Shown here piece by piece: positions 15,809-54,167 of a stretch of 64,000 nucleotides of DNA; the first letter of the stretch is position 1; each line of letters starts with the position of its first letter. A model generated the notes under the pieces. It saw only the letters and a list, made by a program, of their open reading frames with translations. It had not been told where the DNA came from and searched no databases. Position numbers and translations under genes: made by a program. The DNA is taken from IMG/VR virus record IMGVR_UViG_3300007513_000001, positions 124,001 to 188,000 of that record, one strand, 5' to 3'. This stretch comes from a virus.

Positions 15809-17908
15809 ATGGCTGGAAAAACTACTACAACTGCTTTAGACTTTGCTTTTAAAAAGCTTTTGGGAAAAGCTAATACTTCTAATCTTAAGTCTGACTCTCA
15901 AGAAACTATAGGGAGCAATATTCAGGTAGGAGCAACTACTGTATTTGGTTTGCCTCTACCGCCATCTCCGTCTAAGAGTTTGTACACAGTTCAAAATAAT
16001 GCAGTAGAATATGTGGTTTTTGATATAAGCGCAATCCCTGGAACGAGCTATGATGCTAACGACCCAGGCGGAGGAGGAGACGAAGGCTCTAATCCAGGCA
16101 CGCACGGTTATGCATTAGCTCTTACCGGTAGTTATCAATCTCTTACAAACAATTCTAAATCTGGAACTTTTCCATTTACTAACAGCCAAGTTCTTTCGGG
16201 GTCTGCTGGAGCGTTGCAAATTGTTCCAGAGCTTTTTTCTTCAGATTCTCCAAACCCATATTCACTAACTCTTTATGAATCAAACGGGTCTGGTGGAATA
16301 GGAGACCAAATACCTTTACTTGACGAAGTAGACTGGCTAATAGATACATTTAGCGGAGTTTTATTTCTTCAAGAATATGATTCTACTAAAATACCAGCGT
16401 ATGCAAAAGCGTTTATATACGTTGGAGATATGATGAGTTCGCTCACTGGTTCCGGCGGCGGCTCTGGACCCGGGGATGCGAATGCAGAATATTTAGTTTT
16501 GTCTGCTACTGGTTCATTAAATGCAGAAAGAGTTTTAACTGCTGGAACAGGAATAAAATCAGTTGATTCTGGAGCAGGGTCTGCTTTTACTTTGTCCATC
16601 GACAATTCTGTTGTAGCCACTCTGACAGGCTCTCAGTTTTCTGGAAACCTTGGGGTAACAGGATCTATAGGATCAACGACCGCTATTACTTCTCCAGCTT
16701 TTTCTGGGTCTTTAACGCAACTTTTAGATGGAACTAGTTATCTAGTTGCCGGTTCCAATGTTACAATAACTTCTGCTTCTAATGGTTCTGTTACGATAGC
16801 TTCTACCGGAGGTGGAGGCGGCTCAGGTGATGGAGATTCAAAAGCTGAATACTTAGTAAGCAAAATTACTGGCTCTTTATCTAACGCAAAATTAATAGAA
16901 GCTGGTTCTGGAATTACTATAGTAACTGGGTCTAATTCTCTTACTATTTCTTCTAACTCTTCTAACATTACTGGTAGAAGCAAACAAAGTTATTTTATAA
17001 CAAGTTCTATACCTGCAAACTCTCAAATAGAAACTCAGTTTTCTAACTTTTCTGATGTTCTTTTTGATAAAGACTTAATAGATGTTTATTTAAACGGACA
17101 ACTACTACATTCTGGTACGGCTGCCGAAGTTTCTTCTTCAGACAAAGACTATACTGTTTTTACTTCTGGGAGCGTTAAGCTAGCTTTCGGCCTTGAGGAT
17201 GACGATCAACTAGACGTAATACTTTCAAAGCTGTCTGGAAACGCAACTGGCACTGGAGATACAAGCGCTCAGTATTTAGTGTTGCAGGCAACTGGATCTT
17301 TAAGTGCTGAAAGAGTTTTAACTGCTGGTACCGGAATAAAATCAGTTGATTCTGGAGCTGGGAGTCCATTTACTCTATCAGTAGACAATTCTGTTGTAGC
17401 CACTCTGACAGGCTCTCAGTTCTCCGGAAACATAGGAATAACAGGATCTATAGGATCTACTACTTTCGTAACTTCTCCGGCTTTTTCTGGGTCTTTAACA
17501 AACATACAAGATGGTACTTCGTATTTAGTTGCTGGCTCTGGAATAACTATTACTTCTGCTTCTAATGGATCTATCAATATATCTTCTTCTGGTGGTACTA
17601 TTACAGGAGTTACGGCTGGAAATGGATTATCTGGCGGAGGGTCTAGCGGAAATGTTACTCTAGCAACGGCACCTAGTTCTAGTTTATATTTTGTTACCGG
17701 CACTCATGCTTCTGATAGCACTCTTTCAATTCCAAGTGCAGATTTTTCTAAAAATTCTTATGATTATGAAAAAACACAAATTTTTGTAAACGGAGTATGC
17801 ATGATATCTGGTTCTTCTTTAGATTATGAATTAGATGGAAACACCACTGACATAACATTTAAATTCACGTTAGAATCAGACGATATTATTTTAGTGAAAT
17901 ACTTGTAG
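15809..17908 (+). CDS. 699-aa fibre-like protein sharing cassettes with its neighbour
   Basis: It begins at the base after the stop of the 2349-aa gene. After a roughly 210-residue N-terminal region come modules AEYLVLxATGSLxAERVL, VVATLTGSQFSGN and SPAFSGSLT, which are the same cassettes found in the preceding fibre; there are two full SGSLT copies here. Between the copies, around residues 390-475, sits a compact domain with the pattern DVYLNGQLLHSG, then an acidic and hydrophobic end. A second version of that domain closes the protein with FVNGVCMISGSSLDYEL. The same domain also ends the 690-aa protein downstream. A trimeric fibre with terminal beta domains is likely, probably working together with the 2349-aa protein. 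Confidence 0.82.
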   Translation: MAGKTTTTALDFAFKKLLGKANTSNLKSDSQETIGSNIQVGATTVFGLPLPPSPSKSLYTVQNNAVEYVVFDISAIPGTSYDANDPGGGGDEGSNPGTHGYALALTGSYQSLTNNSKSGTFPFTNSQVLSGSAGALQIVPELFSSDSPNPYSLTLYESNGSGGIGDQIPLLDEVDWLIDTFSGVLFLQEYDSTKIPAYAKAFIYVGDMMSSLTGSGGGSGPGDANAEYLVLSATGSLNAERVLTAGTGIKSVDSGAGSAFTLSIDNSVVATLTGSQFSGNLGVTGSIGSTTAITSPAFSGSLTQLLDGTSYLVAGSNVTITSASNGSVTIASTGGGGGSGDGDSKAEYLVSKITGSLSNAKLIEAGSGITIVTGSNSLTISSNSSNITGRSKQSYFITSSIPANSQIETQFSNFSDVLFDKDLIDVYLNGQLLHSGTAAEVSSSDKDYTVFTSGSVKLAFGLEDDDQLDVILSKLSGNATGTGDTSAQYLVLQATGSLSAERVLTAGTGIKSVDSGAGSPFTLSVDNSVVATLTGSQFSGNIGITGSIGSTTFVTSPAFSGSLTNIQDGTSYLVAGSGITITSASNGSINISSSGGTITGVTAGNGLSGGGSSGNVTLATAPSSSLYFVTGTHASDSTLSIPSADFSKNSYDYEKTQIFVNGVCMISGSSLDYELDGNTTDITFKFTLESDDIILVKYL
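16600..17600 (+). repeat. Two further copies of the fibre cassette
   Basis: Units coding for VVATLTGSQFSGN plus SPAFSGSLT begin near 16610 and 17393 and match those of the upstream 2349-aa gene. The DNA coding GSQFSGN and the following GSIGSTT is very similar between copies in the two genes. These are coding repeats, not spaced CRISPR-like repeats. Confidence 0.8.
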
Positions 17909-21043: not shown

Positions 21044-22000
21044 ATGGCCGGCATATTAGACAACAAAACTCGAGTAATGGACGTTATAATCACTCCGCTC
21101 GGAAGATCTCAGATGGCTTCTGGTAGGATGAAAATTGAATATGCATCTTTTACAGACAGACAGATTATTTATGAATCTGGTTCTTCAGGAGCTCTTTTAG
21201 ATTTAACAGATAATCTCTATTTTGAAGCTTCTCATACTGAAAATGATCAAATAATTTATGAAATTGATCCCGACGGCAATCTTGCGCCATTTCAGTCTGG
21301 AGAGTATGTAATAAACGGGCAAGATGTTACATTTACGACTGGGTCTGCTCAGGGTGCAGCTTATACCGGATCAATTGATTTAATATCGGAAACTATTTGC
21401 AATAATGCTACAGATCATTTTAGGGCTCAAAGAATTATTGGCACCAGAGACCTCTTCAAAGAAGACAAAGGGGCAACATTTAAAATAAATCCAACTACTG
21501 CATCATTTTATGTCTCCGACGACGGTCCTTTAAACGAAGACGAAGATTTAACTAGTATTTCTCAAGATGATGTAGAATGTGTCTTTCAATCTTCTATGTT
21601 TTCTCACTTACCAAATTTTAAATATTTGCCCCCTATGTCTAAACCGCATCTCGACGCTCCGGACGGAGCAGTCTTAGCTGAATATACTCAAATTAACGGT
21701 GTGGGAACAACCGAGTGGTCTACTGTTGAAAGTTATCTCTCAAAATACGATTATCAAACTATAGACTTTGAAGAAACTTCTGGAGAAAATAATATACTGT
21801 GCCAAATTTTTGAAGAAATTTCTGATAGTAGCTCAGGTGGCACCTTGGAAAAACTTTCCGTAATAGATTATGGTACTTTTAATATAGAGTCAGACAGGTC
21901 AGCTCACGTATTTTTTGTGGGTAAGTTATTTAGAGATTCAGTAGGGTCTTTATGTTTCGCAAATTTGATGACTTTAGTATTTGACGATGAGGCAGACTAA
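21044..22000 (+). CDS. 318-aa structural protein with GILDNKTR-type N-terminus
   Basis: The N-terminus reads GILDNKTRVMDVIITPLGRSQ and continues with an A-S-G segment and FTDRQIIYE. The 234-aa protein encoded at 33005 starts with the same pattern (GFLDHST, D-x-x-L-T-x-x-GRKKLAEG, then a D-x-x-x-Y segment). The shared N-terminal 55 residues look like a common docking domain. The rest is acidic and mostly beta, with no recognised motif. A Shine-Dalgarno-like AAGGAAC lies before the ATG. The stop overlaps the next start (TAATG at 21998-22002). A baseplate or tail-appendage role is inferred from neighbours. Confidence 0.75.
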   Translation: MAGILDNKTRVMDVIITPLGRSQMASGRMKIEYASFTDRQIIYESGSSGALLDLTDNLYFEASHTENDQIIYEIDPDGNLAPFQSGEYVINGQDVTFTTGSAQGAAYTGSIDLISETICNNATDHFRAQRIIGTRDLFKEDKGATFKINPTTASFYVSDDGPLNEDEDLTSISQDDVECVFQSSMFSHLPNFKYLPPMSKPHLDAPDGAVLAEYTQINGVGTTEWSTVESYLSKYDYQTIDFEETSGENNILCQIFEEISDSSSGGTLEKLSVIDYGTFNIESDRSAHVFFVGKLFRDSVGSLCFANLMTLVFDDEAD

Positions 22001-25000
22001 TGGGTGGATTCGGTGATTCGATACTTGACTCAGAGGGCGACGGGTCTTCTGGTACAGACAGCGATAGTGAAACTTTCACTCCAGAGACTCACGGTCGAAC
22101 TTTCGCTGAGCCCGGTGGGCCCACCTCGGGCCCCGGTGGGTACACTACTCCCGGGGGCACGACGGGCACCGATGAAGGAAGCTGTGTTATAGAGGGAACG
22201 CTAATTCAAACTCAAAGAGGCTCTATACCTGTTGAGTGGGTTGAGCTTGGAGATAAAGTATATTCTTATGATTTTGATTCTTGTAAATTCGGGTATTTCG
22301 AAGTCTTAGAAATTTTACTACCTGTTAAAAAAGCTTCATGGTTTAAAATAACTACGGCTCTTGGATATACTCTTAGTTGCACAGCTGATCACCCTATTTT
22401 TAGTACTAGCATAGAATCTGGTGAGCTTCCAGTGTCAGAAGCTGAAATAGGAGATCCAGTTTATGTTTTTCAAGATGGAGAAATTGTTAAAGATTTCTTA
22501 GTTTCAAAAGAAAAAATAATCGAAGAAACGATAGTATATAACTTTGAAATCGATATCGTTCATTCTTATTTTAGTGATGGCATCCTTTCCCACAACGCTG
22601 GCACCAAAGGCAGAACTGCAGAAGAAACTATGGAATCTGCCACTGACGCAGCTAGCGCTTCTAGTAAATCGACGTGGCTTGGCGAAGTCGCAGACACCAC
22701 TTCAACGTTCGTGTCGGCAGGGAGGGTCATGGGTGGCTACTATGCCATGGACGCAGCAGATGGCTCAGAGTTATCCACAACAATACCGACCGAAGTGGAC
22801 GGGTGGTCCGGCTCAAGCTATTATATTAATAGTGATGTCGGTCCCTGTATTACTGATATGAAAATAGATTTAGTCGGGACCGATGCAGATTCTGGCAGAA
22901 GTAATTACTTGATGACTCTAGAGTGCACCGCTTGGATAAGAGAGATAGATTTATACAACATTGGCGTTTCCACAGTAGTCGGCCAGCTTTGCAAAAGCTC
23001 TGGTGGAACCACAGCTGATTATTTTTCTTCTGTAGATCCATCTTCTGCCGATGTTATATTTTCGACAATGTCTACGGGTGGACCAGGTCAAGAATTCGTA
23101 GACGAAATTGAAGAAACAGATTATTCTGTAGTTGAAGTATGCAGCGATTGGCCATCTGATCCAGGTATAGTGTTCGGTGACAATATTTCTCTCGATTCGA
23201 GCCACCGTCTTTCGCTTGAATACAACCAAAGAGATACTGCCACTAACGTATTGTTGGAAGCAAGCGCTCTTTTAGAGAGAAGCGGTGACTCTACACCTAC
23301 GCTGATCAATTCTCTTATGGAATTCAATATAGATCCAGCCCTGATAGGCACACTTCAATCTCCAATAGAGACTTGGGAACAATATTATGCAGGGACCCTT
23401 TCGCCGTCCGGCCTGTATACAGTCGAAGGACATGAGTATAGAACACAATATCGATTGTTATATGAGTACCAAGATAGTTTAACTGAGGTTAGCAGCCCCG
23501 TGGCCGCAGGTATTCGTAGTACTTCGCTAAACTTAGCGTATACTCCAATGAAGTTTTATTTTGTTGGATCTATGAGTGACACTCAATTTGAAGATTTCGC
23601 TAGTGACGATTTATTTCTTCGACTTACGTATGTTGCTAGTCCAATGGGTACTTTTACTGAAGCTGATTTAACTTCAGATTTAAAACAAGGGGCCACTAGC
23701 GTTTCATTAGACATACAGGCCGCAGCTAGGGGATATTTTGCTAGAGATTTTGAAACAGTTAACATTAGCGTAGATTCAGCAAACGCTGAAAGACCTTATG
23801 ATATTATTGAATTAGTAAATCCGAATCCGTTTTATGTAAATTGCACAGTAGAAGAAATATCTTATCTTCCGTCCTATGAAAGAACAGCTCAAACTGTGAA
23901 AATGGAACCACTTTCTACCACTTCGATCCATTCACTCAATAATTATCAATTAACTGACACTAGATTTTATAGGTGTGCAGCAACAAGCGCTTTAGATACA
24001 GAGATACAAGTTTACGACGCTGCTGAGTTCAACTCTTGGACCAGGTCAGTATGTATAGCGAGAGCGGATGTATCTATAGACTCTAATGGAGATACTTGGT
24101 TTATTAATTTGCCATCATCATGCACTAAAATAAAGTGGGTAGCTTTTGAAAAGGGAAAAGAAGGAGCTACCGGAATTGAAAAATCGGTACCCTCTCAAAA
24201 TACGATTTATAAAGGGACTATATCTGTTACTACTGAAGAACAAATATCATCATCGTTCACGCGGCGACTCGATATAGGATATGGTAACGGCGCAACTTAT
24301 ACTGTCGAATTTATTTTTCAAGATTCGGATGGTACTATGTTGGGATATTGGGATGCTGCGTATACTACTGCGAGAACTTTTATGGACGCACCAGTGCAGC
24401 CGATTTCTTTTGCGGTAGTGTACGATGCAGATGAGTCGACTGGCTCTGTTAGCATCACCATAGCCGAAGCGATATCTTCTAATTTAACAAGCGAATATAT
24501 GACCGCAGCTACATTTGGAAGCTCTGGTGGAGCGTGGCAGTCAGAAGTAGAATCGATAAAAAATAATGCTGGTATGGTTACAACTTATACAATAACACGC
24601 CAAGATTGTATTACTGGCGAAGAAGAAGTTTTGTCGTCAAATGCCATTGCGGGAGCTACGACTTCATATTCTATTAATAGCGGTGGAGAGTCTAGTAGAA
24701 AAGTAAAATTTAAAGTTGCTCTAAAAGTTGCTTCGTTAGCCGCAGCTTCTGAACAAACAGCAGTCACAACAAAAGAAACAAGGAGTGGAGTAGGAGACGT
24801 GCAATTTGCTTATTTAGCTCAAGAATTAAACTGGCCGCAACTTTTCTACGGCGCAGCTAATCCTGGCCAAGTGTATGGTTTAACAGATTATTTTGAGCAA
24901 CTTTATACGCAAAAAGAAGTTTATTTCACCATAGACCCTAGAGGAGAACTTTCTACCCCGTATGTTATTTCTGTAGATGTAGAAAGAAGCCTAATAGCGC

Positions 25001-25332
25001 AAGCTAATATTGTTACTGTTACGGTTGGTGGAACTTTAGATGAAATAGATCATATTATTTTATATTTGGATCACAATGGTGTTGTCGCTCCTTATAAAGT
25101 CGGCTCGCCGCTGAATTCTAAAGTAGTGTTTGTAGATAAAGACCACTACGATTCGATTGGATACCTATATTATAGGGCCTCTATTTTCTTTGGCACAGAT
25201 AAAACTTATACTCCGGCGAGCGACAGTCCCGCGGGACAAATATTTAGATATAGCGATATCGACTTAAATACAGCTTCCGATGGAATTTGGGGAAGTACAG
25301 ATACCATAGAATCGCTAGAAGGAACGGGGTGA
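22000..25332 (+). CDS. 1110-aa virion-type protein carrying an intein-like Hint domain
   Basis: After 61 Gly/Thr-rich residues comes a complete Hint fold, residues 62-199. It has Cys62 with the GTLIQTQRG block, the CTADHPIF block with Thr128 and His131, and the VYNFEIDIVHSYFSDG block leading to His198-Asn199. The next residue is Ala200, not the Cys, Ser or Thr needed for ordinary splicing, and there is no homing endonuclease insert. This matches bacterial-intein-like (BIL) type A or cleaving mini-inteins. The remaining 910 residues are beta-rich, typical of large baseplate or fibre proteins. The gene overlaps its upstream neighbour by one base. Self-cleavage to release a mature protein beginning near Ala200 is my inference. 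Confidence 0.85.
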   Translation: MGGFGDSILDSEGDGSSGTDSDSETFTPETHGRTFAEPGGPTSGPGGYTTPGGTTGTDEGSCVIEGTLIQTQRGSIPVEWVELGDKVYSYDFDSCKFGYFEVLEILLPVKKASWFKITTALGYTLSCTADHPIFSTSIESGELPVSEAEIGDPVYVFQDGEIVKDFLVSKEKIIEETIVYNFEIDIVHSYFSDGILSHNAGTKGRTAEETMESATDAASASSKSTWLGEVADTTSTFVSAGRVMGGYYAMDAADGSELSTTIPTEVDGWSGSSYYINSDVGPCITDMKIDLVGTDADSGRSNYLMTLECTAWIREIDLYNIGVSTVVGQLCKSSGGTTADYFSSVDPSSADVIFSTMSTGGPGQEFVDEIEETDYSVVEVCSDWPSDPGIVFGDNISLDSSHRLSLEYNQRDTATNVLLEASALLERSGDSTPTLINSLMEFNIDPALIGTLQSPIETWEQYYAGTLSPSGLYTVEGHEYRTQYRLLYEYQDSLTEVSSPVAAGIRSTSLNLAYTPMKFYFVGSMSDTQFEDFASDDLFLRLTYVASPMGTFTEADLTSDLKQGATSVSLDIQAAARGYFARDFETVNISVDSANAERPYDIIELVNPNPFYVNCTVEEISYLPSYERTAQTVKMEPLSTTSIHSLNNYQLTDTRFYRCAATSALDTEIQVYDAAEFNSWTRSVCIARADVSIDSNGDTWFINLPSSCTKIKWVAFEKGKEGATGIEKSVPSQNTIYKGTISVTTEEQISSSFTRRLDIGYGNGATYTVEFIFQDSDGTMLGYWDAAYTTARTFMDAPVQPISFAVVYDADESTGSVSITIAEAISSNLTSEYMTAATFGSSGGAWQSEVESIKNNAGMVTTYTITRQDCITGEEEVLSSNAIAGATTSYSINSGGESSRKVKFKVALKVASLAAASEQTAVTTKETRSGVGDVQFAYLAQELNWPQLFYGAANPGQVYGLTDYFEQLYTQKEVYFTIDPRGELSTPYVISVDVERSLIAQANIVTVTVGGTLDEIDHIILYLDHNGVVAPYKVGSPLNSKVVFVDKDHYDSIGYLYYRASIFFGTDKTYTPASDSPAGQIFRYSDIDLNTASDGIWGSTDTIESLEGTG
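22183..22596 (+). other. Hint (intein-like/BIL) domain coding region
   Basis: Codons for Cys62 through Asn199 of the 1110-aa protein, 138 residues, the size of a minimal Hint fold. Blocks A, B, F and G of inteins are all visible in order. The segment just upstream (about 22110-22175) is locally very GC-rich and encodes Gly/Pro/Thr linkers, including a 12-base palindrome GGTGGGCCCACC at 22114-22125. Confidence 0.85.
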
Positions 25333-25336
25333 ATAA

Positions 25337-28300
25337 ATGTCTGGCACTAATGACTCTACTAATTTTAATTTATGGACTACAGATAATCTAAGCACTACTA
25401 GCGGAGAATCTGCAGTTGATATTTCAGCTTCTAGCGTTGCTTTGGATTCATCAGTCAGTGATATTCCAAGTACGACTAATTCTTCTTCTGGGCTGTCTAC
25501 TACATCTGCAACGATTGATAATGCGGGCACAAATAGAATGCTGACTGAAGTGTTACTTAATCCATTACGCCCAGAGCTTTTAGCAATTTTAGACCTAAAG
25601 TCTTTTAAAGAGTCATCTGATGGTGGCCTGACTCGCACCGATAGTTCTTTTTATGATTACGCCGTAGCAAAACTTGCAGTAAGAGCGTCTGATGCATCGA
25701 CAGTTGCAGAAACTATAGAAAGTCTTTCTACTAGTTATCCAGATGAATTTAGGTCTGCGCTGGCGCAATATGAAACTTCACTTTCTTCTTCTTCTAGCGA
25801 AATAGAGATGCTTAAGCTAGCGTATATGCTAAAACAATATGCTATTTTAGGACCAAATTTTCGTGATTTTTTAGAGATCTTTGATTTCGAAGGTTCAACT
25901 AGCGTAGACCTTGGTCTTGTCACAGATGACGAATACAACGTTTATGATTATTATAGAAAAGTTTTTGGAATTCGAGAGGATGACGATATTTACGTTCCTA
26001 GTAGTACGTTTTTTGCTGAAGCAATTCAACAAACTGCTTTTATGACAGTTATTGGTGCCCCCTATACTATCATGGGCTTTGATCTCAAATCATATGATTC
26101 CGATCTCCGCCCCACAATGTCCCGCAGTTATGTCGGGTGGTCTAATAATTTTGCACTTCCTGAATCTTCAGGCCCCGGCAAATATAACGTTTTCCGCCGC
26201 GGCGGACGATCTACGGAGATGGGTAATATCTCAACCATGCGCCGCGGCGGAAATAGGGGATATTTAGATGCTGAGCGGGCTGTCAGAATAAGAGTTGCCG
26301 TATACAATTCTTTAGATGGTGAATCAGAAAACGCATATCAATCTAAGCATTATCCGCACACTCAAGTATTTTCTTCTATATTGGGAAATAATTTAAACTC
26401 AAGCTATGTAGTAAAACAATGCCAAAAAACCGATGGAGCTTTTGACACTGTTTTGTGGAGCATATTAAAAAAGAAAGCGGGCGCGATCGTTAACACTTCT
26501 TTTTCTACACCTGGAGCGTCAATTTTTAAAAGCTTGGCTGGTTGGGATCCATATTTACAGACACGCTTTAATTCTTCAAAACTGGAAGATGATTCGTTGA
26601 TTAATAGACAGTTTTTACCTGATTTGACCATGTTCGAAAATGGAATTATGGGAGCTGCTTTTGAAGAAAATGAATGCTATGTAGAAAAATGTAAGGTTCA
26701 ATACACAAGCGACACAGGAGACACTGTAGAAACTTCTTCTATCAGAAAAACAATCAATGAAGCTTTTGGTAGTGTAGACGGATCAATATCTTTTGGTGAT
26801 TATGAATCGATTGCAAATAACTTGAGTTCTGCTTGCAAGGATTTTGGCAAAGCGATGGGAAAAATGCATCGATCTGGTAAATACCAAAACTTAAACAAAG
26901 CAGAACAAAATGCTCCTATGAATAAGGGTATTTTTAAAAATTATCCACAGACAGCTTTTGACCCAGGCTCTGTATTTAGCGCGTGTCTTGAGACATTCAA
27001 AGAGAGATTTGCAGAAAATTTTGAAGAATATTATCTTTGGTATGGATTTCAGTTAGATCCAACAATCCCAGACGCATCCACTTCATGGCCCAGGGGAATG
27101 CACGCCACAAGCACTGAAAACATGCTTGGCATGTTCAGTCAACCAGATCCACATCATATTAAAAGGTTTGCTTCTTTGATGGCGTACGGAATAATAAATT
27201 CTGATGACCAAGTAGGAAACAATAACGCAAGATGTTTCGGCCTCGCTATAGCTAAACAAATAGCGGGAGCTTTTGTTGGAGACTTTTATAAAGGCCACTT
27301 AACATTCAGCAACGAAACTGAGGAAGTTGTAGAATTTGAAACCGTTACGTCTACAGATAGCGAAGGGAATCCAACCACAAGCGTACAAGAAACTAAATTC
27401 ATGGCAAAAGTGAACGCCAATCCACTCACTGGCGCGCCAGCGTCGTTAAGAGGCTCATCAAGCGGGGTTTGGGGTGTTTTAGTTCCTCCTAAAGATTTAG
27501 TCGCTTCAGATGGGTCGATAATGAAAAATGTTGCAGATATGAATGTAGACACCGATAAGGCGACAGTCAGCTCAGATTATTTAGCTATCTATCAAAGATC
27601 TGCACACGGTAATGGTTTCATAGCAGATAATGCTTTTGCTGGTGAATCGCTGGGCGGAACCAATTTTTCCGATATGCAGCTGTCTGGCTGGATGCAGTGG
27701 GCCCCATGGTTTAATCCAGAAGCAGATAATATATACGGTGGCGGAGCTCACTTTTTTACCAAACAGTTCTGCTCTTTACGCTCAGCCGGAGGGGGCGGCC
27801 AAGCCTATCTCAAGGATAAGTTCGATGAGCTCTTAGAGTCTTCTTATCAAGAAGCAGAAATCTCTTGGGGCGCTGACACCCTCCACGCGAGCGGTAAGAC
27901 TTTTACTCCCAAGGACTCTCTTTTTGAAGCTTGCAACATGTGGAAATATTCTTGGCATTGGGCGAAAGATTTCCACGAAGAGTCAGATGTTCCTTACATT
28001 CCACTTTTGGCAAATTTATGGGCTGCTGAAATGATAGAGATGTGTTTATTGACTTTTAGAAAAATTTTAAAAACAAGAGGACATAATATTGGACCAGCAA
28101 GCCCAGCTGATCTTTGTTTTCCATTCGAAGCTAATACAGCTCCATATACAGACTCGGGTGGATATGCAGATATAATAATGGACAACTTAGAACGAGTTGG
28201 CGAAACGGATTGTGAAGATTTTCCAGCCAGCGAGTGTTTCTGGCAGGCTGAGGCGCACGATCAAGATTATTCTACTGGGATTGGGTTTAGATACTGGGTA

Positions 28301-31138
28301 CCAACAATGAGATCTATCCACGAGAACTTTTGTAATGATGATGGTACTTTAGCTGCTACTGGAAAACCATTAGCAGAAATATTCGGCCATATTATTGATA
28401 ATATGGCAATGATAATGAAGCAGACTTATCCATTTTTTCATGTTGCTTATATACAATGGGAAGGGGTTGGTACCTCAAATGCCTATACGCGTTTTCCAAT
28501 ACTCGGAAATTATCACAACATGGTAGACGGAGATGCTGTTGCATCTGGAGAAACTCGAGAAAAAGTCGGCGCGCCCGTTTATCCCAGGATGCTGTACCCC
28601 TATTACAATTCCCACCACGATGATGCACTCGACAATGACAAGTTGTTGAAATACACTGACCACCTCGTTGAGCAATGGATTGAAATGAACCTGAGACAGA
28701 ACGACGATACCGCGACACATCTTGCAGTCGATATGCAAAATGTGACAACTAGCTGGTATGGTATGGAACAGACTGACTCGAATAAGATAGGCGAGGGCGT
28801 GGGTACCGCCATCAGCGGCGAACGAAGCCGTACGGGTGACACGATTAGATCAAATTTTGTTGGCGAAGAGGTTATATGGAACCGCGTTACTTTTCCAGAA
28901 ATTCTTGAAGCCGATGATATTATTTATTGGGATTCTACTTCGAATCACGACGACCAGGATATTTCATTAATAGATTTTTCTGTGCTTTTTGCCTTGACAG
29001 GAAACACGAGTTTAGATTCATTCGCGGATTCGGAAGTAAACGATCTCACAGACTTCACCGGAAGAGCTAGGTGGATAAAGGGAGGCTATTATAATAGCGA
29101 CGACGAAAACGTCGATGCATGGGGAGACATCATCTCATCTGGAGATACCGGTATGACGCCTCGCGCTTTTTGGGTGCCATGGTATATAGCTGCGATTCCC
29201 ACTATTATTGAAAAGCTACTAGAGTTAGAAATAACTCCTGCTGATACTGGTGCGCTCTCTTATACTTCATCTGATAGTGTTCTACAACGAATGATGGGTG
29301 GATTGGTTGAAAACAGTTCGGGGATATATAGTTTTGGAGATGACGGGATATTATTGGGTGTAGCCCCAATGTTATCTTTAACAGGCTACACCCCTTATTT
29401 AAACTCTGGAGGCACCGGGCCGACCGGTTATGCTGGCGTCGGTGGCCTGGGTCAAACAGGTAATGGGGGTGATGCTCGATTTGGTGGCACAGTCACCAAC
29501 GGCCATCTCCGATACATAAATAATTATATAAATAAGCTTTGGAGAGGTTTGATTTTATCCTGTAGAGAACCATATTTTAAAGCTATAGCTTTTAATTTGT
29601 TTGATAAGTTCGGCGAAAGAATCGAAGATTATTCTGGCACCGCTATTAAAGCTTTTAACAGAGACGGCGATGCGAAGAACCTCGAGCCGGTGGTTGAATA
29701 TATTAGTGATCTTATAGAGTCAGGCGAAGCTGGTGCCGATATATTGCAGAATTTAACAGATCAGCAGATGGCTTTGAAATATTTATCTTTTTATCGTCAG
29801 AAAGGAGATAGCAGCAGTGGATTGATACCAGCACAAGAGACCATAGACTCTAAATTAATGGCGGCAATTAATTTAATGTTTGACACCCGTGATATGTCAA
29901 AAGAGGGTTTGAGAACGTTGTGTTTTGGTATACCTGCTACCGGCGTAGAAGAGTTTGATGATTCCTCAAGTGCTAGTAATACCCTGGGTGGCTCTAGATA
30001 TATCCCACAAAACATGTGGATAGGAATTACAGGTTACAATTTTGAATACCCTCAAGTGTCACTAGAGCCCATTTGCATACCTTTTAATGCCAATTTGTTC
30101 GTTGTTACTGAAAGTTTTGAAGACTTAACTATTGAAGATATATTGTCTTATGGATCGATTAGCGATATAAGAGATAATATGAAATTCTTAAAAGCAGAAT
30201 TAAGCGTACAAGAAGGCGAAGGGGAATCGACTCAAATAATAGTGAATGATGACGTTAGGATTGCTACTTTATCTGATTTGTATGGAGATGATTTAAATGA
30301 TAGAATTCTTGTATCAGCATACCATATTCTAAGAAGCTATTTGTTAGAAAATTATTATAGGATAGTTTTAGGTGTCAGCATAAATGAAGACACATTCCCA
30401 AGCACCTCAGAAGAACTTGGTCTAGGAATTAATGATTATGCTTCTAATTTTGCTGAAGCTCTTTCATCTGAATTTTCATCCTACAATTCTGGAGTTTCAT
30501 CGGCAGTTTCTCAAGTGATGAGCTCATTATCAACTTCAGTTTCAAATTACAATACAATCGCTTCTGGATTTAGCACAACGTTGGGAGCAACTAGATTTGA
30601 AGATCTTTCAGATGAAATTTTAGATTCTGCCACTAATGCTGTGGGGTCAAGATTATATACTGCGGAATCTATGCGGCAGCAAATTATCGGAGCTAAGAGA
30701 TTTGATAGAGTTATATTTTTCCCATTTCATCCAGACGATTTTTGCGTACGCTGGGAAAACTCAGTGGGCACAACTGCGGGATCTCCAGCATGGGATGATA
30801 TGGTGCCTTATACTACTGGTGATGATGTCAGAGAATTGATAGGCTACCGCTTCACTGGCGAAACCGAGACCGCCGTCACTTTAGACGATGAGGGCTGGAT
30901 TTTAACTACCGGAGTAGAAGAAGCTGCAGACGGTGATGACACTGTACAAGAAAGTGATTATAATAATCTTTATGATAATATGCTCTTCAGCTACTCCGGT
31001 CTCGTGGAATACAGTTCCTGGGGCACTGTGATTGACACAGGGATAAAATTTAAAGCTCGTGACGGTGAAAATAGTATTAATTTCTTTAGAGCTTCCGTAA
31101 TTATATACGACGGAAATACGTTGGGAGACGATGCATAA
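25337..31138 (+). CDS. 1933-aa giant structural protein, unknown
   Basis: A very long soluble protein with a Ser/Thr-rich N-terminal 60 residues and then a mixed helix and strand region (LNPLRPELLAILDL near 75). There is a central part with many Trp, Tyr and His residues and a GGTGPTGYAGVGGLG glycine segment near residue 1360. The C-terminal part has Ser-rich coiled-coil-like helices around residues 1690-1760. There is no signal peptide, no long hydrophobic tape-measure helices and no enzyme motif. It begins five bases after the previous stop and ends in a TAATG overlap with the next gene. Several short stretches use GC-rich codons unlike the rest of the gene. It is probably a baseplate or tail-tip scaffold-sized protein. 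Confidence 0.75.
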   Translation: MSGTNDSTNFNLWTTDNLSTTSGESAVDISASSVALDSSVSDIPSTTNSSSGLSTTSATIDNAGTNRMLTEVLLNPLRPELLAILDLKSFKESSDGGLTRTDSSFYDYAVAKLAVRASDASTVAETIESLSTSYPDEFRSALAQYETSLSSSSSEIEMLKLAYMLKQYAILGPNFRDFLEIFDFEGSTSVDLGLVTDDEYNVYDYYRKVFGIREDDDIYVPSSTFFAEAIQQTAFMTVIGAPYTIMGFDLKSYDSDLRPTMSRSYVGWSNNFALPESSGPGKYNVFRRGGRSTEMGNISTMRRGGNRGYLDAERAVRIRVAVYNSLDGESENAYQSKHYPHTQVFSSILGNNLNSSYVVKQCQKTDGAFDTVLWSILKKKAGAIVNTSFSTPGASIFKSLAGWDPYLQTRFNSSKLEDDSLINRQFLPDLTMFENGIMGAAFEENECYVEKCKVQYTSDTGDTVETSSIRKTINEAFGSVDGSISFGDYESIANNLSSACKDFGKAMGKMHRSGKYQNLNKAEQNAPMNKGIFKNYPQTAFDPGSVFSACLETFKERFAENFEEYYLWYGFQLDPTIPDASTSWPRGMHATSTENMLGMFSQPDPHHIKRFASLMAYGIINSDDQVGNNNARCFGLAIAKQIAGAFVGDFYKGHLTFSNETEEVVEFETVTSTDSEGNPTTSVQETKFMAKVNANPLTGAPASLRGSSSGVWGVLVPPKDLVASDGSIMKNVADMNVDTDKATVSSDYLAIYQRSAHGNGFIADNAFAGESLGGTNFSDMQLSGWMQWAPWFNPEADNIYGGGAHFFTKQFCSLRSAGGGGQAYLKDKFDELLESSYQEAEISWGADTLHASGKTFTPKDSLFEACNMWKYSWHWAKDFHEESDVPYIPLLANLWAAEMIEMCLLTFRKILKTRGHNIGPASPADLCFPFEANTAPYTDSGGYADIIMDNLERVGETDCEDFPASECFWQAEAHDQDYSTGIGFRYWVPTMRSIHENFCNDDGTLAATGKPLAEIFGHIIDNMAMIMKQTYPFFHVAYIQWEGVGTSNAYTRFPILGNYHNMVDGDAVASGETREKVGAPVYPRMLYPYYNSHHDDALDNDKLLKYTDHLVEQWIEMNLRQNDDTATHLAVDMQNVTTSWYGMEQTDSNKIGEGVGTAISGERSRTGDTIRSNFVGEEVIWNRVTFPEILEADDIIYWDSTSNHDDQDISLIDFSVLFALTGNTSLDSFADSEVNDLTDFTGRARWIKGGYYNSDDENVDAWGDIISSGDTGMTPRAFWVPWYIAAIPTIIEKLLELEITPADTGALSYTSSDSVLQRMMGGLVENSSGIYSFGDDGILLGVAPMLSLTGYTPYLNSGGTGPTGYAGVGGLGQTGNGGDARFGGTVTNGHLRYINNYINKLWRGLILSCREPYFKAIAFNLFDKFGERIEDYSGTAIKAFNRDGDAKNLEPVVEYISDLIESGEAGADILQNLTDQQMALKYLSFYRQKGDSSSGLIPAQETIDSKLMAAINLMFDTRDMSKEGLRTLCFGIPATGVEEFDDSSSASNTLGGSRYIPQNMWIGITGYNFEYPQVSLEPICIPFNANLFVVTESFEDLTIEDILSYGSISDIRDNMKFLKAELSVQEGEGESTQIIVNDDVRIATLSDLYGDDLNDRILVSAYHILRSYLLENYYRIVLGVSINEDTFPSTSEELGLGINDYASNFAEALSSEFSSYNSGVSSAVSQVMSSLSTSVSNYNTIASGFSTTLGATRFEDLSDEILDSATNAVGSRLYTAESMRQQIIGAKRFDRVIFFPFHPDDFCVRWENSVGTTAGSPAWDDMVPYTTGDDVRELIGYRFTGETETAVTLDDEGWILTTGVEEAADGDDTVQESDYNNLYDNMLFSYSGLVEYSSWGTVIDTGIKFKARDGENSINFFRASVIIYDGNTLGDDA

Positions 31139-32907
31139 TGACAACTAGTTATCCATCATACGGAGCCTTTGTTTTTGACGTACCAGAACCAGGCAGTTTT
31201 TCTGGGCAATTTATATACAATTTTTATGTTTCTAATGAAAGAACTTCTATAAATACGCATATAGTTGAAGAAGTTGATGGCGAAGAAAAAGATTATGGCT
31301 ACGCTCGATATATTCAATTAGAGCTTACACCTCCAGTAGATGCTTCACTGTTATCGGCAGTAGAAACTATTGACATTGAAGCTGCAGAAAAAGCAGCTAT
31401 TCTAAACACATACTATGACACACTGAATTCTGAACATACAATTCAAGGAAACAATTTTTCTACTATTACGTTAGAAGATTCTGAAATTTCTGGAGATGTT
31501 ACGGCAGCCATTATTGAAGCAGCCGCAACCCAGTCTGGATTCACTAATCTTGGTTTGGCAGATGCTTTGAGTTTGATGTCTACAACCAAAGATGTTCTTG
31601 ACGTAGATGCTTTAATGAATGGAGCTCAAATAGATTCTGCGAATGAATATTCTTATTACGATCCATCTTTGGGAACGGCTGTTCAATACTCTCAAACAGA
31701 AGAAAATGGTGAATTTTCGATGACGTTTGCTGTTAATAATAAATTTTTATCTGATATTTTAGCCTTTTCAGAATCTGCTCCATTGAGCTCCCTGTTTGGA
31801 AAAATAGATTCAGATTTATCATCTGCTGCATCCACTCAGGCTGGTGCTAGAGCAGGTCAAGATTCTTCTTTGCTGTCTATAGACCAATATATGCCAACAA
31901 TGCAGGTTATGTCTGAAGAATCTTCTACATCTTCAGATTCTGGTTTTATGCCAGGAATTGCTTTCATGGGGTATGTAGTTGATAAAAGCGAAATAATAGA
32001 TTCTTCTACAGAAGAATTCATTACCAGAGCATTTTTTACTGGAGATAACACGGATGCTTTAGACAGCGTTGCAGATTACGAAGTTAAATACGGCTCCACT
32101 TATTGTTATCAAATAAGTACGGTTTATTTGCTACGGTGGAATGAATATTCTGCTTCTGGTGAGGATACAATAACAACACAAAAATATTCTTTAGTTAAGT
32201 CTCGCTCTGCTCCAAAAGCTGTTGTAGAGTGTGTCGAAAAAATACCACCAGAGCCACCATCTGGAGTCGAGTTTCATAGAAATTCTAATGGAACTATAAA
32301 AATAATTTGGACTCCAGGCGCAAACCCTCAATTAGACGTTGTAAAATATCAAGTTTTTAGAAGGTCTTCTATTGATGATCCATTCGTTCTTCAAATGGAA
32401 ATAGATTTTGACTACACCGAAGATCAACAAGAACCATCTGAAAATGTTCCATCTCAATATATCAACAAAGTAGAATACCAAATATGTTCTTATACTGATT
32501 CTGGCTTTGATAATGAATCTGATTATATTTACGCTATTTGTGCTGTCGACACGCATATGCTGAGCTCAAACTATTCAGCGCAATATAGAGTAAAATATGA
32601 TAAAACTAACGGCCAGCTCGATATTTCATGGATTTCTCCTAAAGGGTCTCCGAAGCCATATCCAAATTTTTTAATTCCGGGTATTTTAACAGAAGATTCA
32701 ATTAAAGACAGCTTACATAGTTATCTTAAGATATATTTTACGCCAGACTATTATAAAATATTAGATGCTGATGGTGTTGACAGTCAATTTATTCCTTGGA
32801 CTAATGCTAATGATATCGGTGGCGCTAGAATGCAAATAATTAACTTAGATAGGCAAAATAGTAAAAATATAAGAATTAGATTCAAAGATCAGAGGACTAT
32901 ATCTTAA
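31138..32907 (+). CDS. 589-aa structural protein with FN3-like region
   Basis: It starts in a TAATG overlap with the 1933-aa gene. Residues 1-365 are beta-rich and acidic without a known family. Residues about 369-470 have a fibronectin type III look: a PPEPPSGVEFH entry strand, an IKIIWTPG strand, VVKYQVFRRSS and a later YAICAVDTHMLSS strand. FN3 domains are common in phage tail and baseplate proteins, where they probably help attachment or spacing. The C-terminus continues with a second strand-rich section starting near YRVKYDK. A weak hairpin terminator covers its stop codon. Function in the virion is inferred. Confidence 0.75.
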   Translation: MTTSYPSYGAFVFDVPEPGSFSGQFIYNFYVSNERTSINTHIVEEVDGEEKDYGYARYIQLELTPPVDASLLSAVETIDIEAAEKAAILNTYYDTLNSEHTIQGNNFSTITLEDSEISGDVTAAIIEAAATQSGFTNLGLADALSLMSTTKDVLDVDALMNGAQIDSANEYSYYDPSLGTAVQYSQTEENGEFSMTFAVNNKFLSDILAFSESAPLSSLFGKIDSDLSSAASTQAGARAGQDSSLLSIDQYMPTMQVMSEESSTSSDSGFMPGIAFMGYVVDKSEIIDSSTEEFITRAFFTGDNTDALDSVADYEVKYGSTYCYQISTVYLLRWNEYSASGEDTITTQKYSLVKSRSAPKAVVECVEKIPPEPPSGVEFHRNSNGTIKIIWTPGANPQLDVVKYQVFRRSSIDDPFVLQMEIDFDYTEDQQEPSENVPSQYINKVEYQICSYTDSGFDNESDYIYAICAVDTHMLSSNYSAQYRVKYDKTNGQLDISWISPKGSPKPYPNFLIPGILTEDSIKDSLHSYLKIYFTPDYYKILDADGVDSQFIPWTNANDIGGARMQIINLDRQNSKNIRIRFKDQRTIS

Positions 32908-46637: not shown

Positions 46638-47477
46638 ATGCCGAAGCATAATAAAAAAAGAAATGTTGGAATTATCTATGAACAACTACTTTCTTCTCTA
46701 TCACGCGCTTTAGTAGAGGGCAAAAATGGAGAAGTTAAAATAGTAAAAGGAATCATTGATAAACACTTCAAGCCTGGAACAGAGCTCTATAAAGAGTTTA
46801 GGCTTTTTCAAGCTATGGTTAAAACAAAGGTGCCTCGAGAGTCTTTAGCTATTAAAATATTAGGAGAGGCAAAAACAGCTTCTGTTAATAGAAATGCAAA
46901 AAAACTCCAAAGAGAAAAATCTATGTTGATAAAAGACATAAATTACAAAATGGGCAATTCTAATTTTTATAACCAGAGAGTCCAAGAATATAAAGAATAC
47001 GCAACCGTTCAAAATCTTTTAAACTTGTGGGAAAAAGGTGAGGCGGGATCGCTACAAGAAGCCATCAGATATGAATCTTTAGTGCAGGACATGCTTCTAA
47101 GAGAAGAAGACCAGCATAATTTCGAAGATGAAAAAACTGAAGATGTAAATAAGCTAACTGTGAAAATAATGTTAGAAAAATTTAATAAAAAATATGATTC
47201 TAGCTTAAATCAAATGCAAACAAAAATAATTAAAGAATACGTTTTTTGTTCTGGAGAAAATTCTTTAAAGAGTTTATTAAACGAAGTAAAAATTGCTGCC
47301 ATGCACGAAATATCCCAAGTTCCAAATTCGCATAGCAATAAGGTCATTTGTGAAAAAGTTAACAAAGTTAAAAATAACATTTCTAGATTAGACGAAAATA
47401 TTCATGATGACGAAAATATTTCTAGATTCTTGTTGCTTTCTAAACTTTCAGAAGAACTTAAGGAGGATTCAGTATGA
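46638..47477 (+). CDS. 279-aa unknown protein between portal and protease
   Basis: I choose the ATG at 46638, preceded by GAAGGA inside the end of the portal gene; an in-frame ATG at 46626 is also possible. The protein is helical and highly charged, starting MPKHNKKRNVGIIYEQLLS and containing basic helices (NAKKLQREKSMLIKD) and later acidic ones. The position between gp20 and gp21 genes matches where T4 places small prohead core proteins (gp67, gp68). An internal core or assembly role is plausible, but the similarity is of place only. Its end overlaps the protease start by four bases (ATGA). Confidence 0.72.
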   Translation: MPKHNKKRNVGIIYEQLLSSLSRALVEGKNGEVKIVKGIIDKHFKPGTELYKEFRLFQAMVKTKVPRESLAIKILGEAKTASVNRNAKKLQREKSMLIKDINYKMGNSNFYNQRVQEYKEYATVQNLLNLWEKGEAGSLQEAIRYESLVQDMLLREEDQHNFEDEKTEDVNKLTVKIMLEKFNKKYDSSLNQMQTKIIKEYVFCSGENSLKSLLNEVKIAAMHEISQVPNSHSNKVICEKVNKVKNNISRLDENIHDDENISRFLLLSKLSEELKEDSV

Positions 47478-48085
47478 GCGATTCTAAATTACATTTGCTC
47501 ACGAGTTGGACTCCGTTTGAATATACTGTAGATCAAATTAAAGAATCTAGAGAAAATAACGGCGGAAAAATTTTAATGCGAGGCGTACTTCAAAAGTCTG
47601 ATACGCTTAATCAAAACGGCAGAGTCTATCCTCGCGTTATCTTAGATAGAGAAGTTAGAAACTATCAAAAATTCATAGCAGAAAATCGAGCGCTTGGAGA
47701 GTGCGATCATCCCGACTCTTCAGTTGTCGAACTTAAAAACGTGTCTCACATAGTAAGAGAAGCTTATATGGACGGAGATATATGCTATGGAACTGTAGAG
47801 CTTTTAGATACTCCAGCTGGAAAAATACTCCAGAGTTTAGTCGAATCTGGAGTGACTTTAGGTATATCATCTCGAGGAGTTGGATCTACTAAAAATGAGG
47901 GAGATCACCAAGTAGTTCAAGACGATTTTCAATTAATTTGCTGGGATTTCGTTAGTGAGCCTTCGACTCCAGGAGCTTTTATGATGCGTGAAGGTGTAGA
48001 AGTTAGAAGGTCTGATTTAAATAAGCATTTTAATAAAACAGATAGAATTGATAGAATATTTAACGATATTTTAGATTGGGAGTAA
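47474..48085 (+). CDS. Prohead maturation protease (T4 gp21-like)
   Basis: This 203-residue serine protease of the herpes/T4 type cleaves scaffold and capsid proteins inside the prohead. The catalytic His79 lies in GECDHPDSS and the catalytic Ser (132 or 133) in LGISSRGVGS; NQNGRVYPR near 46-54 is a family motif. The length matches T4 gp21 (212 aa). An AGGAGG lies just before the ATGA overlap with its upstream neighbour. T4 gp21 cuts after Glu in Leu/Ile-x-Glu, and such a site (LRE before Ala) occurs at residue 61 of both capsid proteins here. Confidence 0.93.
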   Translation: MSDSKLHLLTSWTPFEYTVDQIKESRENNGGKILMRGVLQKSDTLNQNGRVYPRVILDREVRNYQKFIAENRALGECDHPDSSVVELKNVSHIVREAYMDGDICYGTVELLDTPAGKILQSLVESGVTLGISSRGVGSTKNEGDHQVVQDDFQLICWDFVSEPSTPGAFMMREGVEVRRSDLNKHFNKTDRIDRIFNDILDWE

Positions 48086-52268: not shown

Positions 52269-54167
52269 ATGTCTAAGAAATTTACACTGAATCAGTTAAC
52301 CGAGGGTATTCGTCAACGTAATGTTGGAACGGGTAACAGAAGGTTAATTGAAAAGTGGTCCCGCACTGGTCTCCTTAGAGGCCTTGAGGGCACCACTCGC
52401 GAAAATATGGCTACGCTGCTTGAAAATCAGGCATCACAGGTCTTACGCGAGGCTAACTCAATTTCCACCGGTGGTGGAAACTTAACTAGTTCTGGAGACC
52501 TCCGCGGTTTTCAAAACATTGCATTCCCAATCGTTCGTAGAGTTTTCGGCGGCCTGGTTGCTAATGAGCTTGTATCTGTACAGCCCATGAGCCTTCCATC
52601 TGGCCTCCTTTTCTATCTTGATTACACCTACGGAACCAACGTTGGTGGTCGCGACGACTCAGGTATCGATGCATCTTACCCATCTGGAAGTTCAATTTAC
52701 AATTCTCCAGTCGGTAAAGGCATACGTTCTGGTTCTCTTGGAATCGGCGGTCAGTATAATCTTGCTGGCTCTGGTTATTCAAGAGTACATAAGATTGCTT
52801 CGAGCGTAACGCTCCTTGCATCTGGCGCCTATATGGGGAATACAACATTCTCAGCTGACGCTATCGATGAAGTAAGACGTATGGTCGCTACTGGTTCTGA
52901 TGGCAAGCTTCTACAGTTCGATGAGCAGATTTGTAGAATTATTGAAGATAACCCCAACGATGCAGGCCTCGGCGTATTCAAGGCTTACTTTGTTGACTTT
53001 AGTTCAGGCAAGTTTAGTAATGCAGACGCCACTATGGTAAAAGACTTTGCTCTTATACCACCTGATGGCACTGCGCCGACTATTCTTTCACCAACCTTGA
53101 AATCTCAGGATATTCAAGCAAGTGGCGATAGAGTGCTTAATGTTCGTAGGCTTAATCAGCTTGGTAAGTGGGATGGAACTTCGTTCACCGCAGATCCGCT
53201 AGTTAGAGCTGGTGATGCTAACGCAGCTATTCTAATGATCGTTTCTGGTACTAAGGGCAGCACGGCCGAGCAGACTTATAGCGTTGACTATGTTCTCAGC
53301 CCAAGTCTTGATGCAGGGTCAGATGGTGATGCTCTTACTATTCCAACCTTTGAGTCTAACTTCGCTACTTCGCCTTCACCAGAGATCCCAGAGATCGACA
53401 TTAAGGTAGAGTCAATCGCAGTTACTGCAGTAACCCGTAAGCTCCGCGCTCGCTGGTCACCAGAACTCGCACAGGACTTGAATGCTTATCACAGTCTTGA
53501 CGCTGAAGTTGAGCTTACTCAGATCCTTTCCGAGCAGATTGCTCTTGAGCTTGATAGAGAGATCCTTAATGATCTACTCACTCAGGCTAAGACGAACTTC
53601 TACTGGTCACGTTCACCAGGCAAGTTCATGAACAAGAGAAATGGTAACCTTGTCACTCCTGGTGGAGCTGGTTCTATTGGTCCAAGCTTCACAGGCACCG
53701 TCCGCGAATGGTATGAGACTCTGGTCGAGACCATTATTGATGTTGCTAATGAGATCCACAGACTTACTCTAAGAGGATCAGCTAACTTCATCGTAGTGTC
53801 ACCCGACATCGCGACTATTCTTGAAGCGTCTGTTCTTTACCGTCCAAGCTACAGCTTAGATGGTGATGGCCAGGTTGGTACTCCAATGAGCATTGGTGCA
53901 GAGAAGATGGGAACCCTTAGTAACCGTTTCACGGTATACAAAGATCCTTACTTCCCACGCAACAAAGTTCTCGTAGGATTCAAGGGCGGAAGCTATCTTG
54001 AGACCGGTTATGTATACGCTCCATACGTACCACTTATTGTCACTCCAACAATCTTCGCTCCAGAGGACTTCACCCCACGTAAGGGTGTTATGACTCGCTA
54101 TGGTAAGAAGATGGTTCGTTCTGACTTCTATGGTACTGTTACAGTTGCAGATCTTAACGTAATCTAA
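52269..54167 (+). CDS. Major capsid protein, copy 1 (T4 gp23-like)
   Basis: A 632-residue HK97-fold capsid protein of the gp23 type. The family core is seen in ESIAVTAVTRKLRARWSPEL, the AQDLNAYHSLDAEVELTQIL helix and LELDREILNDLL, and the C-terminal KKMVRSDFYGTVTVADLNVI. A probable protease site follows Glu61 (LRE before Ala62), as in T4 gp23 near residue 65, so the mature protein would begin at Ala62. AAAGGAG lies before the ATG. Codons favour C-ending and GGT/CGT types, fitting very high expression. A second copy follows after 93 bases, with near-identical ends and a diverged middle (residues about 124-350). Confidence 0.95.
   Translation: MSKKFTLNQLTEGIRQRNVGTGNRRLIEKWSRTGLLRGLEGTTRENMATLLENQASQVLREANSISTGGGNLTSSGDLRGFQNIAFPIVRRVFGGLVANELVSVQPMSLPSGLLFYLDYTYGTNVGGRDDSGIDASYPSGSSIYNSPVGKGIRSGSLGIGGQYNLAGSGYSRVHKIASSVTLLASGAYMGNTTFSADAIDEVRRMVATGSDGKLLQFDEQICRIIEDNPNDAGLGVFKAYFVDFSSGKFSNADATMVKDFALIPPDGTAPTILSPTLKSQDIQASGDRVLNVRRLNQLGKWDGTSFTADPLVRAGDANAAILMIVSGTKGSTAEQTYSVDYVLSPSLDAGSDGDALTIPTFESNFATSPSPEIPEIDIKVESIAVTAVTRKLRARWSPELAQDLNAYHSLDAEVELTQILSEQIALELDREILNDLLTQAKTNFYWSRSPGKFMNKRNGNLVTPGGAGSIGPSFTGTVREWYETLVETIIDVANEIHRLTLRGSANFIVVSPDIATILEASVLYRPSYSLDGDGQVGTPMSIGAEKMGTLSNRFTVYKDPYFPRNKVLVGFKGGSYLETGYVYAPYVPLIVTPTIFAPEDFTPRKGVMTRYGKKMVRSDFYGTVTVADLNVI
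52323..52378 (+). repeat. 56-base block identical to 54315-54370 in capsid copy 2
   Basis: This run is base-for-base identical in the two capsid genes while the codons on both sides differ synonymously. A second such block, 44 bases, is at 53565-53608 and 55548-55591. Two more identical blocks lie nearer the 3' ends of the genes. Confidence 0.9.

Follow-up and report, generated by a model that had tools for sequence, protein, structure and literature searches.

A candidate self-removing Hint domain on a tail-region protein of a T4-like giant phage

The stretch of DNA analysed here (hereafter the window) comprises 64,000 nucleotides, positions 124,001 to 188,000 of the IMG/VR record IMGVR_UViG_3300007513_000001. 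Its source contig measures 293,409 bases, and the same virus is represented by two more IMG/VR contigs (99.97 and 100% identical). The window encodes a T4-type portal protein gp20, two gp23 proteins, a terminase and a gp21-type prohead protease, and therefore belongs to a T4-like giant phage, the gp20, gp23 and gp21-type protease genes of the T4-like virion cluster being found together on one contig. A tail-sheath-like protein is also encoded, with sheath domains that score barely under cut-off. The two gp23-type major capsid protein genes adjoin each other (window positions 52269-54167 and 54261-56150), and the gp21-type protease (Peptidase_S77; 47474-48085) implies that head maturation in this phage is probably also driven by a protease in the ordinary way. 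Elsewhere in the window, a 300-base direct repeat (16490-16789 and 17273-17572, 81% identical) lies within a 699-aa gene (15809-17908).

The locus of interest is a conserved tail module, in which a 318-aa gene is followed by genes C, D and E. Its features, in window coordinates, are as follows.

21044..22000, + strand: 318-aa gene upstream of gene C, marker of the conserved tail module
22000..25332, + strand: gene C, encoding a 1110-aa tail-region protein (P0001) with an N-terminal Hint domain; defined by its ORF, an orthologue and homologues
22000..22182, + strand: N-terminal tag, residues 1-61, acidic and rich in Gly/Ser/Thr/Pro
22183..22596, + strand: Hint domain, residues 62-199 (138 aa), from profiles, phmmer and AlphaFold2/Foldseek
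22183..22185, + strand: Cys62, block A nucleophile, invariant across a four-member clade
22381..22392, + strand: Thr128-Ala-Asp-His131, block B, T/S and H conserved
22561..22563, + strand: His188, block F, invariant within the clade, unlike Asp185
22591..22596, + strand: His198-Asn199, block G
22597..22599, + strand: Ala200, the +1 residue and predicted new N-terminus on cleavage
22597..22900, + strand: linker of about 100 residues, rich in Ser/Thr/Ala/Gly, ahead of the conserved core
25337..31138, + strand: gene D, 1933 aa, whose positional counterpart at locus L160 bears an N-terminal Hint domain
31138..32907, + strand: gene E, 589 aa, which closes the conserved module

At least 135 IMG/VR loci encode the 318-aa gene; of the 80 examined, 77 showed a gene of 250 aa or more after it. 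Neither the 318-aa nor the 589-aa neighbour had a match in named phages. One module relative devoid of a Hint domain, L244 (NHDW01000006.1; 318-aa gene 31% identical), sits on a 306-kb contig that is listed under a Methylococcaceae MAG (TMED69); binning may have assigned phage DNA to a bacterium here.

The ATG of gene C overlaps the stop of the upstream gene (TAATG), and the full chain has a mass of 120.4 kDa. The C-terminal part of P0001 is homologous to the gene occupying the same position in other phages, while the linker that follows the Hint domain mostly has no counterpart in relatives lacking it. Against named phages, P0001 matched through its Hint domain alone, mostly at about 21-33% identity, and no full-length relative emerged. 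The family was modelled on the Hint-less relative L136 (pLDDT 79); the PDB entries that this model matches are fibronectin-III arrays, and its matches in a set of viral models are FnIII, minor tail and gpJ-type proteins. Because full-length matches to both sets are generic FnIII arrays with low TM scores (0.1-0.2), we restrict the claim to a domain type: the gene C family is predicted to consist of successive FnIII-like domains, an arrangement characteristic of tail proteins. From gene context and fold we infer that the products of gene C, gene D and the upstream gene A are virion proteins, which agrees with the earlier note in placing the Hint domain at the N-terminus of a protein of the virion region.

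Residues 62-199 of gene C constitute a complete Hint domain without endonuclease, for which 138 aa leave no room. The blocks that the earlier note had read from the sequence were all verified (Cys62, Thr128/His131, His198-Asn199, followed by Ala200), as was a short Gly-rich tag ahead of them, 61 aa long, acidic and 66% Gly/Ser/Thr/Pro. The profile search that it had proposed gave a PT-HINT match above cut-off in Pfam (4.4e-7; 30.7 bits against 27.7), the only one in the 293,409-base contig, and an Intein_splicing match below it (4.5e-7; 30.2 bits against 35.8). With NCBIfam models, intein_Cterm scored above its cut-off (17.0 bits against 15.6) and intein_Nterm slightly under (23.3 against 24.5). 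Among solved structures, phmmer found its best match in the bacterial intein-like (BIL) domain 2LWY (5.4e-7). The AlphaFold2 model (pLDDT 91) also has 2LWY as its top Foldseek match (E 2.3e-10, TM 0.85), followed by gp41-1, other inteins and the ciliate BIL2. The domain thus combines the fold with blocks A, B, F and G that together define the Hint superfamily, and its non-nucleophilic +1 residue and nearest relative in both sequence and fold bear out the likeness to type A BILs proposed earlier.

Comparison with relatives extends the earlier note in three respects: the Hint domain out-conserves the rest of its protein, its clade occupies the termini of three different genes, and most module relatives are Hint-less. 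The sole orthologous pair is formed with IMGVR_UViG_3300012952_003952 (242 kb; L054/L133), which carries the Hint-bearing gene C in the same placement. Between the window and L054, the Hint domain is 63.8% identical (88/138) against 30.3% (271/894) for residues 200-1110, which argues that it is under stronger constraint and makes it the best-kept part of the gene C protein; the 318-aa neighbour is 62% identical. The tags measure 61 and 20 aa, respectively, and share a MGGxxDxxL start, the remainder being unconserved.

When the ORFs of the 80 module loci were searched with a Hint profile, four loci stood out with strong matches, namely the window, L054, L160 and L200. A further match comes from L199, where the intein of a helicase-like gene (L199:735-2838) is split over two ORF pieces (HN-Cys), perhaps through a frameshift or a sequencing error. 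A profile designated A6, which includes the L054, L160 and L200 domains themselves, was run against 76 module contigs, which may be incomplete, and found nothing strong beyond these three; their contigs alone scored above 200 bits, all others reaching about 50 bits or less. Weaker matches in module contigs (read with the exception of a few on the minus strand) mostly resemble ordinary inteins, several of them containing a long insert or having Cys/Ser at +1. A pattern scan of a collection of 84,980 genomes confirmed no further Hint domain of the window clade.

In a tree confined to viral Hint domains (44 mini-Hints), the four domains form one clade with 99/99 support and pairwise identities of 37-63%. 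Cys1, the block-B His, the block-F His and the terminal His-Asn are invariant in all four, while the block-F Asp varies (D, D, S, K). The +1 residue is Ala in the window, L054 and L200 and Met in L160, and never Cys, Ser or Thr. At L160 the domain lies at the N-terminus of gene D behind a 15-aa tag. At L200 it lies near the C-terminus of gene A, about 14 residues past a FDGxxRN-like motif near which gene A of relatives ends, and is followed by a 38-residue tail. The occurrence of one clade in genes A, C and D points to a single Hint lineage placed on three module proteins, always near an end. Since most relatives do without it, the domain is unnecessary for this tail architecture. The idea that cutting at L160 regenerates the exact ancestral start Met (SHN/MAAAG) was unsupported by alignment to the Hint-less gene D of L149.

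The 44 distinct full-length mini-Hints were gathered with BIL-like queries and constitute a sample, not a census; in 29 of them the +1 position is occupied by a residue other than Cys, Ser or Thr (15 Lys, 8 Ala, 2 Met, and one each of Arg, Glu, Leu and Gly), and in the other 15 by Cys or Ser. Where annotated or readable, the genes that carry the latter include one for a terminase, one for a polymerase-like protein and some without assignment. A lambda gpJ-type tail tip protein (L080:3857-7654; FNIII-A_GpJ, Pfam E 4.6e-45) carries an N-terminal Hint domain between two Gly-rich stretches, with Gly at +1; among 411 phage records that matched this query, not one covered 80% of it, that is, both the Hint domain and the gpJ part. 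Several viral proteins (L059, L084, L036, L044 and L046) contain two or three tandem Hint domains, with His-Asn and then Lys, Arg or Ile at the junctions; a single chain of this kind could cut itself several times. Others (L068-L072, L074-L079 and L081) end in a Hint domain and YLVHNK-stop, with a single Lys past the Asn, and a sizeable product could arise there only from N-side chemistry. In the Alcaligenes phage Afa-NA1, a putative tail protein with collagen-like repeats (L030:4032-5459) has a Hint domain near its C-terminus, with Met at +1 and 12 residues remaining; a neighbouring gene bears the annotation "large intein domain protein". The literature covered on Hint domains in virion proteins, a body without the founding BIL papers, contained inteins of phage terminases and DNA enzymes and no tail-protein BIL.

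Among the known Hint classes, type A BILs offer the closest parallel. The C. thermocellum (Clostridium thermocellum) domain 2LWY shares with gene C its fold, its size, Cys at position 1, the T/S-x-x-H of block B, the C-terminal His-Asn, the absence of endonuclease and of a +1 nucleophile (in four of four clade members) and a variable context, here seen in the unconserved tag and linker and the many Hint-less relatives. It differs in that BILs of this type occur in variable bacterial proteins, whereas the viral domains form a separate clade at protein termini of a phage tail module. That the gene C domain works like a type A BIL can be said more firmly than that it is one, an assignment suggested by sequence and modelled fold. 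The class 1 mini-intein gp41-1 (PDB 6QAZ) is similar in fold (TM 0.80) and in blocks A, B, F and G; however, the window domain is followed by Ala200 in place of a host nucleophile, its clade is spread over three genes, and there is no conserved insertion site, as Hint-less relatives start near the core and have no counterpart of an N-extein. A homing intein is ruled out by the lack of endonuclease and the non-homologous sites. The intein-like C-terminal motif His198-Asn199 excludes a type B BIL. Hedgehog (Hog) proteins place a Hint domain and a sterol-recognition region at the C-terminus, unlike the N-terminal domain and subsequent FnIII-like tail protein seen here. Pretoxin Hint domains (PT-HINT, PF07591) provide the sole Pfam match above cut-off and the idea of an autocatalytic release of the C-terminal part, but that part is a toxin there and an FnIII-like tail protein here, and P0001 has no Pfam match to a toxin family. 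The L080 protein has a comparable layout (short Gly-rich tag, Hint domain, non-nucleophilic +1, tail protein) in another Hint lineage and another tail protein, and was seen here in a viral contig only. Ciliate BUBL BIL2 (PDB 6Y75, 6TMM) has a similar Hint/BIL fold (TM 0.86) and is linked to ubiquitin-like domains; the gene C domain has no such partner.

On balance, the sequence, the modelled fold, the conservation and terminal positions of the clade and the published behaviour of type A BILs favour a catalytically intact, BIL type A-like Hint domain that would cap a phage tail-region protein and then remove itself, a reading built on four clade members, one orthologous pair and fragmentary metagenome contigs. 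Without a +1 nucleophile, no branched intermediate is formed, yet Asn cyclisation and thioester formation are still possible (PMC4031507, PMC7664689, PMC7765530). Once the domain has folded, His198 would assist the cyclisation of Asn199, and the chain would be cut before Ala200, releasing a 911-residue FnIII-like protein (98.9 kDa) from a 199-residue piece (21.4 kDa) composed of tag and Hint domain. The uncut chain would be marked by the tryptic peptide IIEETIVYNFEIDIVHSYFSDGILSHNAGTK, and in the cleaved form the peptide IIEETIVYNFEIDIVHSYFSDGILSHN would bear a C-terminal succinimide. In parallel, Cys62 could form a thioester with Ser61, whose hydrolysis would free the 61-residue tag, while attack on it by the Ala200 amine would yield a minor spliced product. 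The cut itself, the bond at which it would predominate and its service to virion assembly are projected from the chemistry of BILs. The earlier note held that Ala at +1 should make the domain cleave rather than splice. Cleavage is indeed the likely main outcome; the ban on splicing was too strong, because type A BILs lacking a +1 nucleophile do splice at a low level by aminolysis, with cleavage dominating (PMC4031507, PMC7664689).

The same chemistry could give splicing the upper hand, with the Hint domain excised and the tag joined to Ala200 through amine attack on the Cys62 thioester; the product would be a 972-residue protein (104.8 kDa) with the splice peptide TFAEPGGPTSGPGGYTTPGGTTGTDEGSAGTK. 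Type A BILs manage this without a +1 nucleophile (PMC4031507, PMC7664689), Gly/Ser flanks would be flexible on either side of the domain, and the partly kept MGGxxDxxL start looks as if it were retained in the product. Dominant splicing is nevertheless unlikely given that the BILs studied yield mainly cleavage products (PMC4031507) and that the tag is mostly unconserved, its length spanning about fourfold (61, 20 and 15 aa). Alternatively, the thioester could be attacked by another virion protein through an amine or thiol, which would tie that protein covalently to whatever precedes the Hint domain, the tag in the window or the gene A product in L200. The Hedgehog domain performs such a transfer with cholesterol. 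The L200 domain, which comes after an entire tail-region protein, has the Hedgehog-like order, and many other viral Hint domains terminate in HNK-stop, where C-cleavage would free one Lys and N-side chemistry would have to matter. For gene C we regard transfer as quite unlikely: only a 61-residue low-complexity tag precedes the domain, the acceptor is hypothetical, and Asn199 and His198 are retained, though superfluous for transfer alone.

A non-nucleophilic +1 residue would also be expected of an inactive Hint domain kept as a folded spacer, or of an intein decaying after the loss of its nucleophile. This is very unlikely in view of a conservation twice that of the remaining protein and of catalytic residues invariant in four divergent copies; decay at a single homing site also fails to explain one clade at the termini of three genes. 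The patchy distribution, in genes that differ between phages, might instead suggest a selfish mini-intein that hops among tail genes and hardly affects the proteins hosting it. We give this scarcely any credence, since the domain is endonuclease-free and found at non-homologous sites, at termini instead of conserved active-site interiors, and since the missing +1 nucleophile would make it inefficient at removing itself without a scar.

The self-removing cap thus remains our preferred reading, and the presence of its clade on the ends of three tail-region proteins suggests a self-trimming step built into virion making. More tentatively, and with the odds against it, a virus-specific Hint lineage may act in T4-like giant phages as an interchangeable self-processing cap that fits on the end of any of several adjacent tail proteins, whose autocatalytic cut or ligation, and not a protease, would time a step of tail assembly. 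To our knowledge, BIL domains have no well-established natural role to date. Such a role could be tested in a defined setting with the present Hint lineage, which is better conserved than the rest of its tail protein and caps different proteins of one module. With about two-thirds of complete viral mini-Hints lacking a +1 nucleophile in a sample drawn with BIL-like queries, the phenomenon may be wider, and the gene C Hint domain suggests an autocatalytic alternative to protease-driven maturation of phage tails.
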